Source of the DNA: Chondrosia reniformis
Lineage: Eukaryota > Porifera > Demospongiae > Chondrillida > Chondrillidae
Direction of reading: 5' to 3'
Length of the DNA stretch: 64,000 nt
Assembly: GCA_947172415.1 (NCBI GenBank)
Contig: OX359201.1
Span: forward strand, 6,622,501-6,686,500
In this document: positions 15,801 through 47,300 of the stretch, piece after piece
Layout: every line of letters begins with the position of its first letter
Position numbering within the stretch: position 1 is the stretch's first letter
Program-made: the position numbers and the translations under genes
Notes under the pieces: generated by a model
What the model was told of the DNA's origin: nothing
Databases searched by the model: none
What the model saw: only the letters and a program-made list of their open reading frames with translations

Positions 15801-18800
15801 GATTCTTCCGCCCACTTGCCATTCTGTGAGTGCCATACCTCAGATGCCTGGAGGGGTTAACAATTCTGTTTGTGTTTGTTCTTTTCTCTGTCCACGTCAT
15901 CAGACCAAAGTCTCGGGTTTATCAGTTGACCATCTCCTTCACCACCGCCTTTGAGACTGTCCTGATAAAGTGTGTGATCATCGGGGTGTGTCCTAATTGA
16001 TGATCCATGCTGGCCTCTGAAGTGGGAAGTGGAGTGGATTTACATTTAGCTGTCATAGTCTTGGATGGAGCTAATGTAGACAACATTCATAAAGTTTAAT
16101 TGTATTATTTTATTTATTCAGCTGACAATGCTGAAGCTGTAAGTGATAATCAGGGAATGTTTCTAGATGAGGTTGACATTTTTAAGTATTCATGCTCTAA
16201 TGCTTGCCTTGACCTTCTGCACCTCAAGTCACAAAATGATATAAAATACAATCCAATGTCACATTTAATGTAACATCTCTAAAGTACAACATTGCCTTAT
16301 ATGGTAATACTATTTAACACTATGATTATCCTAACTTCCTTATAAAGGCATACGCAATAATGCATATTACAAAGAGAAACAGAGATGGGCTTTAAAATGT
16401 TATCAGAAGACTCAGACATGATCTTGGCATATTCCCAAATTCCAAGGAATGTGATTATCAAATTAAAGGAAAGCCTAGTTCTTAATGTGACCGGGGTGTG
16501 TGCTCTTCACATCACTTGATATGATTGACTAATATTGTCATCACACCAGTATGGTCATGTTTTGGTGAATATTAATATATTATTACACAAGTAATTGCTT
16601 TTGGAATCTGTTGTTTCAGAAACTTTAGCATAGATACAGTTTAATAGTGCCTGAAATAAATTACAGGGTTCTACCATATTTATCAATTAATTAATTAGTT
16701 TTGTAATGCATGATTGGTTCAAGGTTTATTTTGTCACTCTCCAATCATATTATATTATTTTTAATGAAGTCTGTAGGTGCAATAAATCTACCCTGCACCA
16801 GGAAAGTAGAGTAGGTAGCCCTTGATTTCATTACCTGAGTTTACAGTTCAATGGTTCTAGTGTTCCTGGGCGCCTGACTGGTAGGATATGAAGTGTTAAT
16901 TGTCCCTGGGGCCATGCCAGAGGTTGAAGGGCTGTTGAAATGCACTAGAGTGTTCTGCACTTGGTGATGCTGTGAGATGCTTGTTTGAGTGTCTGGAATG
17001 GTACATGTGAAGTTATATCCTTTAGGAAGCAGAAATTGTAACAATTATCTCCTTTTCTATGTTAGTCTTTGAGCTCATCTTTCAAGAGGCCACAAGCCCC
17101 CAAAGATATGCGTAGTGGTACGTTCACTTACAACTGTTATCATGTACTTCATTTTATTATACAAAGCAGTTCAAATTACTTTTCTACTAATTTGCTGATA
17201 TCTTCCATCCATGTAATCCATTATGGAGAGTCCCTCATCAGGACTGGACTAGTGTGATGAAATCATTGCTTCAGTTGTCAGACACTTACTGGAGGAATGA
17301 TTGCTTAAGAATGGGATGTGATTTCATCAGACTAGGACTGGACTGCCTCCACAAAAGAAATTTGCAGCTCTGGCTAACTTATTATGTTATGCATGCCTTA
17401 ACAAATTGAGACTCCATAATATAATTAAAAAGACTGTCATTATAGACGTAACAACATTTACACCCTACATCCATTCTACAGTAAATGACCTATAGGAAAC
17501 TAAACCTAGTGAGAGCTTTGGATGAGGATACAAGAGTCTTCTCTTTATTCTTCTACTCCACATGTTCATTTACTAATATAATTTTGTACGTAAGAGATAA
17601 ACCTGCCTACCTGCCTGATACCTGCCTACCTGCCTACCTGCCTGATACCTGCCTACCTGCCTACCTGCCTGATGTAGATTAACTCTTTATAGAGTGCTGT
17701 CTGATTGTGCATTGTTTTGCAGTGTTTGGTCCTGTCTGTGCCAAAGCTAAAGTTATGCTGAACACCCAAGGGAACGACTTGTCAATGCCTAAAGCTGATA
17801 TGCTACTTGAAGTTAATGAAGTTCCCATCAATCTTAGCAAATTGCAGGTAGTGACAACCTTAGATTCCTGTGTCGTTTCTTTACCTTGTCCATCACATGC
17901 TCCCTCTCCTCTACCCTGAAACCTATCCTCTGCTCCCTTTCCTCTGCCCCCTCTCCTCTTCCCCCTCTCCTCTGCTCCCTATCCTCTGCTCCCTCTACTC
18001 TGCTACCTATCCTCTGCTACCTATCCTCTGCTACCTATCCTCTGCTACCTATCCTCTGCTACCTATCCTCTGCTACCTCTACTCTGCTACCTATCCTCTG
18101 CTACCTATCCTCTGCTACCTATCCTCTGCTATCTATCCTCTGCTACCTATCCTCTGCTACCTATCCTCTGCTACCTATCCTCTGCCCCCTCTACTCTGCT
18201 ACCTCTCCTCTCTCTCCTATTTTCCCAGTATGATGGCATCTTGAGTTTGATTGACTCATTTGATAGAATGACCGTTCAAAAGAAGTTTTGGGAATTTCGT
18301 CCACCAAAGGACATCACAGAACTGAAAGGAAGAGAAAAGCTTCAGTGGTTAGTTAAGTAGTATATGCCATATATGGAGATAAGCACCGCTACTATGAGGA
18401 ATGGTTCCCTAGGTTTATATATGCAGCACGAAGCGTGCATCACCTGATACACAAGAGAAGAGTAGTATGGACCTGGGAGAACATGAAGGCTGTCAGGTAG
18501 GTGAGGGGTGTGTCCCTATGTAGGTGGGTGAGGGGTGTGTCCCTATGTAGGTAGGTGTGGGGTGTGTCCCTATGTAGGTAGGTGTGGGGTGTGTCCCTAT
18601 GTAGGTAGGTGAGGGGGCGTGTCCCTATGTAGGTAGGTGAGGGGTGTGTCCCTATGTAGGTAGGTGGGGTCTGCCCGCATAGTTCTATACTCAACATTAT
18701 CATATGTATTCCGCTTGATGTAGGAAAGACTACAAGACCTATTGCTCAAAGTATGAGGAAAAGCTCTTGGCAAAGAAGCCGTCTACTGAATTGACTAAAC

Positions 18801-41162: not shown

Positions 41163-44100
41163 ATGGCCGACGATCCAGCGAAGCCTCAAGAAGAGCTCGA
41201 GGAGGAGGAGGCGGCAGATCTTAGCCATAAAGATGCTACTAACGATTACGAGCTACCAGACGCCTTGCCCTATGCTTGCTCCATCGAATATCCAGGTGTC
41301 TCGCCGTCCCTTTCCTTTGTATCTGCACACCTCTTGCTATTACCTGCATATAGATGCATGTCAGATGACGTATGCGAGTGATCACTTCATAAACTGTTAT
41401 ATACACCTGCAGGAAACGTGGAGAATGTTGAAAAAGCTATCGATCATTTGGGTGGTCCAGAAACTGTGTCACAAGTACTGTTGTACCACTGCTAGTCGTG
41501 TATGGAACCCATCATGTGATCCTCTTTAATAGGCACTTACCAGTAGACTGCAGAAGCCCCTGGCGCTAAGGTTCAGGCCAAATGACTCACATTGTCAACC
41601 GGTGTTGTCAAGGTTACGAGACTGCCATGGTTTGCTGCTTAAGTGCCGACCCAAGAGGTGTACAGAGAACAAAACTGATGATGAAGAATTGGTTGAAACA
41701 GAAATAGTAGCTGCAGTGTCTAGTGTTGTGGAATTTACAGGTAGAAAGGTTCATATCAATGATCTTTGACCTTTTGACCTCACTGCTGTCTCCCGCTGTA
41801 CTGCAGACCTGTGCGACTTCCAGCTGCTCCATCCTGGCCTGACCACAGAGACCTGTAGGAGAGAACACTATGAAATTAAAGGTGAAGAACATACTCAATG
41901 AAGAAATCTGCAATTGCCACAATGTGCAGCCAGTATATGCTTACAATTCTCTGTGTCATCCATTGAATATTTATTATTTATAATTCATTGTTTATATCCA
42001 TCAAACATTCATATTGCTCTTCCCAGGATTGCTATCTAAAGACCACTTGACAGCTAATGTTCCACTGTTCCTGCCACCAACCTCATTTTCAAAATATAAA
42101 CCAATGCAATATAGGTTAGCCGGTATTCACATAAGTTAGCCGGTATTCACATAAGTTAGCCGGTATTCACATAGGTTAGCCGGTATTCACATAGGTTAGC
42201 CGGTATTCACATAGGTTAGCCGGTATTCACATAGGCTAGCCAGTATTCACATAAGTTAGCCAGTATTCACATAAGTTAGCCAGTATTCACATAGGCTAGC
42301 CAGTATTCACATAGGCTAGCCAGTATTCACATAGGTTAGCCAGTATTCACATAAGTTAGCCAGTATTCACATAGGTTAGCCAGTATTCACATAGGTTAGC
42401 CGGTATTCACATAGGTTAGCCGGTATTCACATAGGTTAGCCGGTATTCACATAGGTTAGCCAGTATTCACATAGGTTAGCCAGTATTCACATAAGTTAGC
42501 CAGTATTTACATAGGCTAGCCAGTATTCACATAGGTTAGCCAGTATTCACATAGGCTAGCCGGTATTCACATAGGTTAGCCAGTATTCACATGAGTTAGC
42601 CGGTATTCACATAGGTTAGCCGGTATTCACATTGGTTAGCCGGTATTCACATAGGTTAGCCGGTATTCACATAGGCTAGCCAGTATTCACATAGGTTAGC
42701 CAGTATTCACATAGGTTAGTCGGTATTCACATAGGTTAGCCGGTATTCACATAGGCTAGCCAGTATTCACATAGGTTAGCCAGTATTCACATAGGTTAGT
42801 CGGTATTCACATAGGTAAACTGGTATTCACATAGGTAAACTGGTATTCACATAGGTTAGCCAGTATTCACATAGGTTAGTCGGTATTCACATAGGTAAAC
42901 TGGTATTCACATGGGGTATCTAGTAAATTTACTATTTCACTTACAGACTTGAAGAGGAGGATCCTTCATCAGAAACTTCTAAAAAGGGTTTTTCCCTATT
43001 CCATCCCCTTTCCATTCCACTGGACCATGCTGGACGTATCCCACAATAACTAAAGTGTTGTATAGTCTATGCCTGCAGCCATGTTGTTCCTTAATTAAGT
43101 GGTCTAGCTGTACCAGATTCCCATCCTAGCATAGCAGTTATCAAAAATGAGGAATTTATTAGTAAACTAAAAAAGGTAGCAAATTACTTACCAACTAAAT
43201 GCAGTACAGCTGCTTTATGTGACTTGTTCTTTAGCTGTTTGAGGAACAACCAATCTGGTCCAAATTTGCACTCTCGTATCATCTTAAACAACAAGTTAGA
43301 CAAAGGTGAGTTTTATGTTGTCACTTTGTCCTAAGGTTTGGAAGCAAGCAATGAAATGCACATCTGGCCTTCTCAGATGTGACTATGCAACTAGTTCTCT
43401 GTTAGCAAGTTGTGTTCACATCTCTAGCTGTAGCAGCTGTGTTCCAGAAGGTGGTGTGTACTTGTGGTGAGTTAACTTTTCTTGAACCACAGGCATCTTG
43501 CTTTGGTTTCGTACCACTTCCTGAGTGGTCCATGGAGGTTGCTGTACATTCGATTTGGTTATGATCCACGAAAGTCAGTAGAAGCAAAAATGTAAGCAAA
43601 AAATATTATTTTTGCAGTGTCATAGAGGGCATGAGTAAATATGAGGAGGAAGATGGAGGGAAGGAGAGATGATAATGGGTCAAGTTTGTCTGTAATCCCT
43701 TAGAGATATTTACTGTTCTATTTATGGATGTAGATACCAGGGAATAAATGTTCGATTCAGCACACACTCTCTTCAGGGAAGGTCAGAGGCATTGCTGAAG
43801 TTTGGGGACCACCAACCCGGAGCTGAACAAGAGACGGACCAGCCACTGCTTGAAGAGGATGACTCAAATACAAATAGTCTTGCTGTGATTGATGAAAGGC
43901 TGTATGTTTCTATAGCCTTGTTCATCTCCTGTAGGATCAACCATTAAGTTGAATCTCTCTTTATAGTCATGCATTTTATTCTGACCGCCCCCCTGTCAAA
44001 CGAAGAATTATGTATCAGCTCTGCTTCATAAGAGATGATGCTGTTCAGAAATTGGTCCATGCTAACGATGGTTTTGAACCCTCAGAGTTTAGTGTAAGTA

Positions 44101-44256
44101 CATATATAGCATTCCCATTATGAATGTAGCCTCCAAAATAACACAATATATTATAAACAGCCCACCACAGGATGGTACACTAATGAGGATTTCGAAAAAA
44201 TTAAGAAGAAGATGGTTGAAGTAACGAATACTTTCAAGCAACACCCACATCTGTAA
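41163..44256 (+). CDS. GTF3C5: General transcription factor 3C subunit 5 (TFIIIC63)
   Basis: Eleven exons, 443 aa, phase-consistent: 41163-41295, 41413-41474, 41533-41740, 41807-41881, 42027-42114, 42947-43035, 43108-43294, 43493-43591, 43734-43901, 43967-44093, 44161-44256. Family marks are SIEYPG near the start, LALRFRPNDSHCQPV, and FLSGPWRLLYIRFGYDPRK, which matches the ITGPWRSLWIRFGYDPRK region of human GTF3C5; the end has RIMYQLCFIRDD. TFIIIC binds the A and B boxes of tRNA genes to recruit RNA polymerase III. The intron after 42114 is almost entirely a 20-bp minisatellite that copies the splice donor. Confidence 0.92.
42112..42915 (+). repeat. 20-bp minisatellite, about 40 copies, copying the GTF3C5 splice donor
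   Basis: Unit ATAGGTTAGCCGGTATTCAC with G/A, T/C variants. Exon 42027-42114 ends in ATAG and the intron begins GTTAGC, so the exon/intron boundary itself is the repeat unit. Several of the last units read ATAGGTAAAC, a stronger donor than the first. Confidence 0.95.
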
Positions 44257-44341: not shown

Positions 44342-47300
44342 ATGCGAAAGGTGTATCGTCTATCCTTCTTCTTTCTTGTTACTGTATCGGTCTGTTCCTT
44401 CGGAGCGAGTGTCGTATTAAGAGATCTTTGTAAACCATCTGAGGACATAATAAATTCCCTCAAAGTGAGTGATACCATCTTACGATTCGGAAGTAGTACC
44501 ACGTTCGTTTACGACTACCATTGACTATGATATACAGATTGTCTACGAATGGCCATGGATTAATGACATAGGCTCTATATTAACTTATTCACCAGTAGAC
44601 TGTCTTGTAATGTCTTGTTGTTTCAATGATTATCGAAAGATCTTTATATTATCTATAGAACAAGTCAAAGCTCTATGTGAATGTATTTTATCCCGGTCGT
44701 TCGGACCCCGCGGAAACAGCTGCGATTGCCGCACTAGTGGCTCGTAATGCCATTAACAGCAACCCTGCCATCTTGGAGGACTACGAATTGGACCTCTACT
44801 TCAGCGATACCCAGGTAGGCTGCGCTTATTTAGATTGTCTAATTTTATTGAGTGCATTGTTGTTAATTACGACTGAATACGTGCCAATAATACTCCAATT
44901 GAAACCGACCCAAGTATAAGTTGCCAGTTCCTATTTACCGGACTATCAGGTTTCCCTTATTTCTATGTACACTGACCCTGTAGTGTAGTCCATCACAGGC
45001 GACTTGGGAGCTAGTCAGAGCCACTTCTAGTCCTGAACACATCAACAGGACCTGGATCATGTTCATTGGAGGCTACTGCTCCAGTTCCACAGCACCGATT
45101 GCTGCCATCTCAAACTCAGTGTACAGCATCACTCAAGTAAGGGAATTATGAAACTCTTGTCAGCGTTATTTGTCATATCTATCTAGCTAGTAAGTGCAAT
45201 TAGCTTCTATAAACTTCTTATGCTCACCACACTGCCAAGATGTTCTTTGCAAGGAAATTGAAAGAGCAATCATTCATGATAAAGCTGCTTCAGATCATGT
45301 TACAAAACCATAGGATATTTGAGCCAATAGAGCTCATTCAATCTCTCATCTCCCGTTCAGCTGTCTCATTTTCCTTTCCCTCTCCCTCTTAGTAGTATGC
45401 AAGGTGTATAGTTCAAATATCAGGTAGTATTTCAACATGACTCCTCCATACCTGCTTATCTGCATTGTTTATGTATTGTCATCATCAAGTATGTGACTTT
45501 TAGTTAACTGCCTATATAACTACATTCCTAGCTTTTACTTGTTGTGATTATACTAACTAATTTTACCACAGACAATAGGATTACATAGCCACTGGTTGTG
45601 TTGAGACTCACATGGATGATTGCTTTCAATGATACTCTTCTTCTTAGATTTCAAATGGTGCAATATCAGCAGATCTAATACAGAAACCAAATGAAACAAC
45701 ATATAGTAAGTATGACAGACTTTTTGGGACACTTCCTATTGAAAGTGATTCCAATTATGCTCGGGAAGCTTGGATGGAGAAGAACGAGTGGTCAAAAGTA
45801 GCTATTCTATTTGAGGCAGAAAATATATTTCAACAAGTGAGTATATTAACATTATATACTTTCATTGATATACTACTAGTGTACTATTGGTCAATATAGG
45901 CAGCAGATAATTTGTCACAAAGGTTGTTAAACAAAACAGTGATACGTAGAAACTTTGCAGAAGATGTTAGCTCACCTATAGACCACTTAAAAGAGAGTGA
46001 AGTCCGAATTATTTTTGGGTGGTTCTATGAAGAGAATGCTGGCAAAGTTATTTGTGAAGTAAGCAGGAGGTTTTATGGCTCTTAAGAGGTAGTTGGAAAT
46101 ATGATTGTTCCTTATACCCCTTCAGGCAAAGAAAAAAGATCTTGTATCTAAAAAGTATGTGTGGATCCTACCTGCTTGGTTGCATAATGAATGGTGGGAC
46201 AAGAACTCTAATTATGGCGATTGTACTAAAGAAGAGATACATGATGCTTTGACAACAAACATGTTTGCAATCGGCCCCTATTTTAACGACTCTGAAAACG
46301 TTGTCGCCGATTCTGGCCAAGTTAGTTATAAATATACTATTAACAAGAAGCAAGCGTGCCGCCTCCATAGCTCAGTGGTTAGAGCACTGGTCTTGTAAAC
46401 CAGGGGTCGGGAGTTCGATCCTCCCTGGGGGCTTTTTCAATTTTTTCTTTCTTTCTGTTTTTAGACTGCTTCCGAATTTGAAGGAAAATATAACGAATGT
46501 CTCCAGATGCATGGGGGTAATCTCGCTACAAATAGCACACATCCATACAGGAAGTCAATGTATGATGCAGTTTTGGCTACAGCTCTAGCACTGGATGAAG
46601 TGGCAACATCCTTCAGTTCAAGTGGGAAGTCTTTGGCCGATATCTCTTATAATGATACTGATATGTACAACAATATAACAGAATCCGTACGCAACCTCAA
46701 TTTTAGTGGAATTTCGGGTCCTGTAAAGTTTGGAGAGAATGGCAGAAATAGTAGACCCATTGCCGTTTACCAGTATAAGCGCAACAGTATGGGAAAGATT
46801 GATCTCCTGAGCAATGTTATTGTCACTTTTGATGGCAATGAAACTACAAATGTCATGGAGCCTGATTGGCATGGAGGCCAGAGACCTCGTGACCGGCCAA
46901 ATGTGATGATGGTAAAACTGCCCCATCAACTGCTCATTGCCTTTCTGGTGCTGATTGCTGTTGCCATTGTGATAGTTGCTGCAGTACTGGTGTTCAATCT
47001 AGTGACATGCACTACCGAGTAAGTGTTGCTTAGCAACTGTGGGACATAACATGGTCCAATTGCTGTCACTACTTTTGTGTTTTGCTCTCTGATGATTTGA
47101 TCCTTACTGCATTTATTTAGGATTTTATCTCCCTCTGGACCACATATGAATACGGTGATTCTGATTGGCTGTTTAGTTGTATTACTAACTACCCTTGCTC
47201 TGGGCCATGAGAATTCAGATGCATATGGTGTTCCGGACAACATAGTTGCTGGTCTGTGTAATGTAAGTTCTCATGCATTGCATCCATTGCTATCTTTGTT

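Follow-up and report, generated by a model that had tools for sequence, protein, structure and literature searches.

A 20-bp minisatellite that spans the 5' splice site of GTF3C5 intron 5 in the sponge Chondrosia reniformis

The stretch of DNA analysed here (the window) comprises 64,000 nucleotides of contig 13 of the Chondrosia reniformis genome (positions 6,622,501-6,686,500). Genome-wide searches covered 117,379,552 bases in 15 contigs. The published assembly, odChoReni1.1, is described as 117.37 Mb in 14 chromosomes plus the mitochondrial genome, with a longest scaffold of 10.41 Mb (PMC12181767). Unless stated otherwise, positions are counted from the first letter of the window.

The forward strand carries GTF3C5, which encodes the Tau95 subunit of TFIIIC. 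We built an in-frame model by hand: the coding span runs from 41163 to 44256 in 12 exons and specifies 421 amino acids plus a stop. Exons 1-6 lie at 41163-41295, 41413-41474, 41533-41740, 41807-41881, 42027-42114 and 42947-43035, exons 7-12 at 43117-43175, 43235-43305, 43493-43591, 43734-43901, 43967-44093 and 44170-44256. The predicted protein aligns with human GTF3C5 (PDB 8clk_E) with an E-value of 3.3e-36. It contains both the Tau95_N triple barrel (84.4 bits, Pfam cut-off 23.1) and the Tau95 HTH domain (85.2 bits, cut-off 23.7), and hence belongs to the GTF3C5/TFIIIC Tau95 family. A tRNA-Thr (TGT) gene lies at 46361-46433 on the forward strand, within an intron predicted for the gene that follows GTF3C5 downstream.

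Exon 5 (42027-42114) ends in TATAG; the repeat unit described below opens with the last four of these bases. Our home-made gene finder skipped this exon. We nevertheless keep it, because it is supported by the reading frame and by homology: the first stretch aligned with human GTF3C5 (residues 28-195) includes exon 5 (about residues 160-189). The gene, the exon and its donor TAG|GTTAGC had all been named in an initial annotation of this DNA, and the 12-exon model together with the human alignment bears them out.

In this gene model the 11 introns measure 117, 58, 66, 145, 832, 81, 59, 187, 142, 65 and 76 nt. Only the fifth is long; the other ten range from 58 to 187 nt. Intron 5 (42115-42946, phase 2) consists almost entirely of a tandem array, which covers 798 of its 832 nt. 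The non-repeat tail (42913-42946) holds the acceptor TTTCACTTACAG, at 42946/42947 with a score of 6.28.

The array is a 20-bp minisatellite on the forward strand. TRF places it at 42111-42912, with a period of 20, 40.1 copies, 92% matches and the consensus ATAGGTTAGCCGGTATTCAC, in agreement with the roughly 40 tandem copies first noted at 42112-42915. It starts with the final four bases of exon 5 (ATAG). The minisatellite thus adjoins the exon directly; its first unit contains the putative authentic donor, of which later units carry in-register copies.

In the register of that donor, each of the 40 units carries AG|GT, AA|GT, AG|GC or a close variant. The commonest class, TAG|GTTAGC, is identical to the exon end and donor and accounts for 19 units, as expected from the earlier claim that the unit repeats this boundary, although the share of the exon in it is ATAG only. 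The remaining units read TAG|GCTAGC (7), TAA|GTTAGC (6), TAG|GTTAGT (3), TAG|GTAAAC (3), TGA|GTTAGC (1) and TTG|GTTAGC (1). AG|GT is found in 25 of the 40 units and GC at the donor position in 7, with GT kept in about 32. The variants are ordered along the array. GTTAGT is found in units 31, 35 and 39 and GTAAAC in units 36, 37 and 40, and units 28-31 are repeated as units 32-35, which reads as the trace of a four-unit duplication.

The 20-bp unit is confined to the GTF3C5 locus. Allowing up to two mismatches, an 18-base stretch of the unit has 38 matches in the genome, 36 at this locus and two single, scattered ones; a reversed-letter control gave one match. Local alignment of the unit with exon 5 and exon 6 does not score above shuffled sequence, and ATAG is all that it shares with an exon. 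When 39 units are subtracted, 52 nt of intron 5 are left.

To score splice sites we built donor and acceptor matrices from the 330 introns that were predicted in the window plus sampled stretches (264 kb). The donor that the gene model takes as the one used (GTTAGC, 42115-42120, forward strand) scores 5.84, the 41st percentile of these predicted introns. Downstream, we scored 40 in-register sites, namely 39 units and a degenerate 41st. By the donor matrix 21 of them match or exceed the real donor (18 equal, 3 better) and 19 are weaker. Hence, the first donor is not picked by score alone.

The three better sites are all GTTAGT (at 42715, 42795 and 42875), with a matrix score of 7.43. Of these we regard the last (42875-42880, forward strand) as the strongest competitor, because in addition to its high score it would leave an intron of 72 nt. 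Duplex energies with U1, calculated with a U1 5' end found in five of seven U1 loci, are -5.8 kcal/mol for the real donor, -7.0 for GTAAAC, -6.9 for GTTAGT, -2.5 for AA|GT and -4.3 for GC. GTTAGT therefore beats the real donor on both measures. The initial annotation had singled out GTAAAC instead, as a better U1 match to which late copies mutate. The duplex energy agrees, whereas by the matrix the three GTAAAC donors are slightly weaker than the real one (5.35 against 5.84), and the change affects only three of the 40 units.

Any downstream donor, if used, leads to a premature stop. For the first one, 20 nt downstream, the computed frame shift ends at a stop at 43132-43134. From the second on, the frame meets a TAG at 42137-42139 on the forward strand. 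This outcome was computed for the second to fifth, 38th and 39th downstream donors (k = 2-5, 38, 39) and extends to all donors from k = 2 on, because the codon lies upstream of each of them. The expectation that such a frame "soon meets TAG" consequently fits the second and later donors, but not the first. The coding part of the idea that the array is a potential source of nonproductive splicing stands. With several exon junctions following the premature stop, such transcripts are expected to decay.

The units contain the self-complementary GGYTAGCC, and we considered RNA structure as a means of masking downstream donors. We reject this candidate: arrays are not stabler than shuffled ones, and the first donor does not stand out as open. 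For the two commonest unit types, tandem arrays fold no more stably than arrays built from shuffled units (0.51 and 0.43 of 400 shuffles are as low or lower in energy); for the GC-type unit the fraction is 0.09 of 400. In a fold of the whole region the first donor has an openness of 0.14, the second least open of 41, with only k = 26 lower. In local folds it ranks as the 19th most open of 41.

Arrays within introns are common in this genome. Our sample consisted of the window and 20 sampled 10-kb stretches, 264 kb in total. We took arrays with a period of 10-100 and at least three copies (n = 59) and omitted 18 that belong to a 13-bp satellite family or its multiples, which leaves 41. The placement of these arrays is limited by a crude, home-made gene finder, except that GTF3C5 was placed by its hand-corrected model. 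Within predicted introns lie 36 of the 41 arrays, and 23 of these 36 occupy at least half of their intron. The 23 intron-filling arrays leave a median of 55 non-repeat bases, compared to a median of 93.5 bases in 286 array-free introns.

Among these 41 arrays in 264 kb of crudely predicted genes, intron-filling arrays show no bias toward donors. In the 23 introns the array lies nearer to the donor in 10 cases and nearer to the acceptor in 12; four arrays begin within 10 bases of the donor and five finish within 10 bases of the acceptor. Donor motifs scoring at least 5.8 are found on the sense strand in 8 of 36 units and on the antisense strand in 7. Because these counts are balanced, donor overlap is close to the level expected if arrays grew at random in short introns. 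Genome-wide, triple matches to AGGTRAG number 1905 (975 + 930), against 1686 (987 + 699) for the reversed-letter control; this is no clear excess of donor-like arrays, in a rough test that includes overlapping matches and to which long or repeated arrays contribute many times. A C-rich sense strand of intronic arrays is likewise unsupported (C>G in 18, G>C in 11, ties in 7; n = 36, p = 0.26).

Other repeats were seen alongside. Between 9260 and 60393 the window holds 21 minisatellite arrays with periods of 10-100 and three or more copies, all in predicted introns, many of which they fill. Five sampled stretches (L020, L029, L030, L031 and L035) consist in large part of the 13-bp satellite, in diverged form (TAGTTGTATGTAC). 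A 23-bp unit (AGGTGAGATGAAGAGGACTCTTA) is found in tandem at several places on contig 1 (for example, at contig positions 5825078, 8846414 and 9937389), as though a mobile element had spread it.

Two further arrays repeat an exon end with its donor. The first lies in the window, in a VPS13-like gene. By eye, this 27-bp array (18495-18666) starts with the last two bases of the exon, AG|GTAGGT, and it occupies most of the intron at 18497-18723. The gene finder set the donor six bases into the array rather than two. When joined, the flanks give matches to VPS13_N (E = 1.8e-14; 53 bits from a 90-amino acid piece, which is below the whole-protein cut-off of 80) and also to the structures of VPS13A and VPS13C.

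The second is one of seven places hand-picked from the genome-wide list of donor-motif matches (L038). The gene is on the reverse strand and the array spans 389-713 in gene orientation, from the exon-end sequence through the intron, with 15.5 copies of a 21-bp unit that comprises 16 coding and 5 intron bases. Its flanks, once joined, match a sulfotransferase family, and the match runs across the junction (E = 4e-5; 24.3 bits against a cut-off of 22). Among the other six places, three are antisense to predicted genes (L037, L039 and L041) and three are ambiguous (L040, L042 and L043).

To explain the array, we propose that an intronic minisatellite was seeded across the 5' splice site, grew in length almost neutrally and leaves the first donor as the one mostly used. 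We consider this account probable. The ancestral intron would have been about 52 nt long and would have carried ATAG at its donor and, probably, a second ATAG some 20 nt downstream. Slippage or unequal exchange could then have duplicated a segment that by chance contained the 5' splice site. With the copy next to the exon preserved, further units, four-unit blocks included, would accumulate as nearly neutral intron length. The first donor would most likely be spliced, and occasional use of a downstream copy would yield transcripts with a premature stop that are degraded.

Several results argue for this account: a gene model backed by homology, a remainder of 52 nt next to introns of 58-187 nt, the block of units 28-31 repeated as 32-35, and the intronic position of 36 of 41 arrays. 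The same layout is described for the VNTR in intron 18 of human ABCA7, where the donor of the next unit is used, with retention of one unit, at about 2% (PMC5954066). Several points temper the account. Neither the matrix scores, with 21 downstream sites at least equal to the first, nor the folds single out the first donor, and the gene predictions used to place the arrays are crude. In a genome of short introns a nearer donor could win, such as the one at 42875 with its remaining 72 nt. Near-neutrality is not assured either, because the expression of ABCA7 fell with array length (PMC5954066).

The initial annotation went further and supposed that the donors compete in proportion to copy number, such that transcripts with premature stops lower or tune the output of GTF3C5. 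The 21 of 40 downstream sites that equal or exceed the real donor, and the premature stop to which use of any of them would lead, speak for such competition. In ABCA7, a longer VNTR goes along with more skipping of exon 19 and with lower expression (PMC5954066), and in the human IFI6 minisatellite two downstream repeat units are reported as splice donors (PMC4526556, citing Turri 1995). The IFI6 donors, and folds that do not favour the first donor, lend competition slightly more weight. However, use of the next-unit donor in ABCA7 is reported to be unaffected by VNTR size (PMC5954066). By analogy, the two human precedents would support donor leak in principle, and ABCA7 speaks against a leak that scales with length. 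We consider tuning by copy number unlikely. The observation behind it is correct, and as a reading of the sequence its splicing interpretation is possible.

The AG|GT units could also double as acceptors and donors. The intron would then be removed stepwise, each step restoring the exon end and a fresh donor. An in-register TAG, forming AG|GT or AG|GC, is present in at least 29 of the 40 units, and most of these copies reach acceptor scores of 3.8-5.2 (20th-34th percentile of the predicted introns). Recursive splicing is known in introns longer than intron 5, compared to which intron 5 is short. AGGT sites are reported to work both ways in human cells and to be enriched in tandem-repeat introns (PMC10809524). 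In the introns described there, such as those of UBC, both splice sites lie inside the repeat and the intron length is a whole number of units. Intron 5 shows neither feature: its acceptor is outside the array, and 832 nt correspond to 41.6 units of 20 bp. Stepwise removal thus appears improbable to us.

The idea can be extended to the compact sponge genome as a whole. Duplication across 5' splice sites would then be a recurring form of intron growth, and the arrays would be tolerated because splicing to any AG|GT unit reinstates the exon end together with a new donor. If true, a gene would be buffered against the length of its own array. We give this extension only a slim chance. Taken by itself, the GTF3C5 array is plausibly a by-product of the frequent filling of introns by minisatellites in this genome.

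A further model, that of Rogers, has introns arise by tandem duplication of an exon segment that contains AGGT, and fission-yeast genes with 24-bp AGGT repeats are reported to carry such introns (PMC4974935). Intron 5 resembles them in that a segment with AGGT or a close variant is repeated in tandem. In contrast to that model, the unit shares only four bases with its flanking exons, resembles neither exon 5 nor exon 6 above shuffles, and leaves the acceptor outside the repeat. Birth of the intron from exon sequence is not the best reading, and we hold it to be very unlikely.

Finally, tandem arrays can be mis-sized in assemblies. We hold a wrong copy number or a misplaced array to be most improbable here. 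The units differ in a structured order. The published assembly was made with about 70x of PacBio HiFi data and has a primary QV of 69.8; its 0.80 million reads total 10.31 Gb, which implies reads far longer than the 802-bp array (PMC12181767).

Among the papers listed by searches on sponge intronic minisatellites and on GTF3C5 VNTRs, none treats this array in its title or abstract opening. Its design is already known in human genes, and the GTF3C5 array is a new instance. It extends the ABCA7/IFI6 type to a core transcription-factor gene of a sponge and to two further genes in the same genome. These three arrays are natural replicates for asking how the spliceosome chooses the first of some 40 near-identical donors.

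The closest known system is the ABCA7 VNTR, with about 24 copies of a 25-bp unit in the reference, the first of which supplies the GT of the authentic donor (PMC5954066). In both cases the units adjoin the exon, the donor is in the first unit, and use of the next donor is out of frame. The sponge array differs in that it lies in another gene, consists of an unrelated unit and includes four exon bases in that unit. For ABCA7, length variation, isoforms and expression were measured, whereas the sponge array is known from the sequence of one haplotype. The IFI6 (6-16, G1P3) minisatellite shares with it repeat units that supply donors, or in the sponge candidate donors, at the end of an exon; in IFI6 downstream units are reported to be used (PMC4526556). 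With the dual-specific introns of UBC it has in common that its tandem units carry AGGT (PMC10809524).
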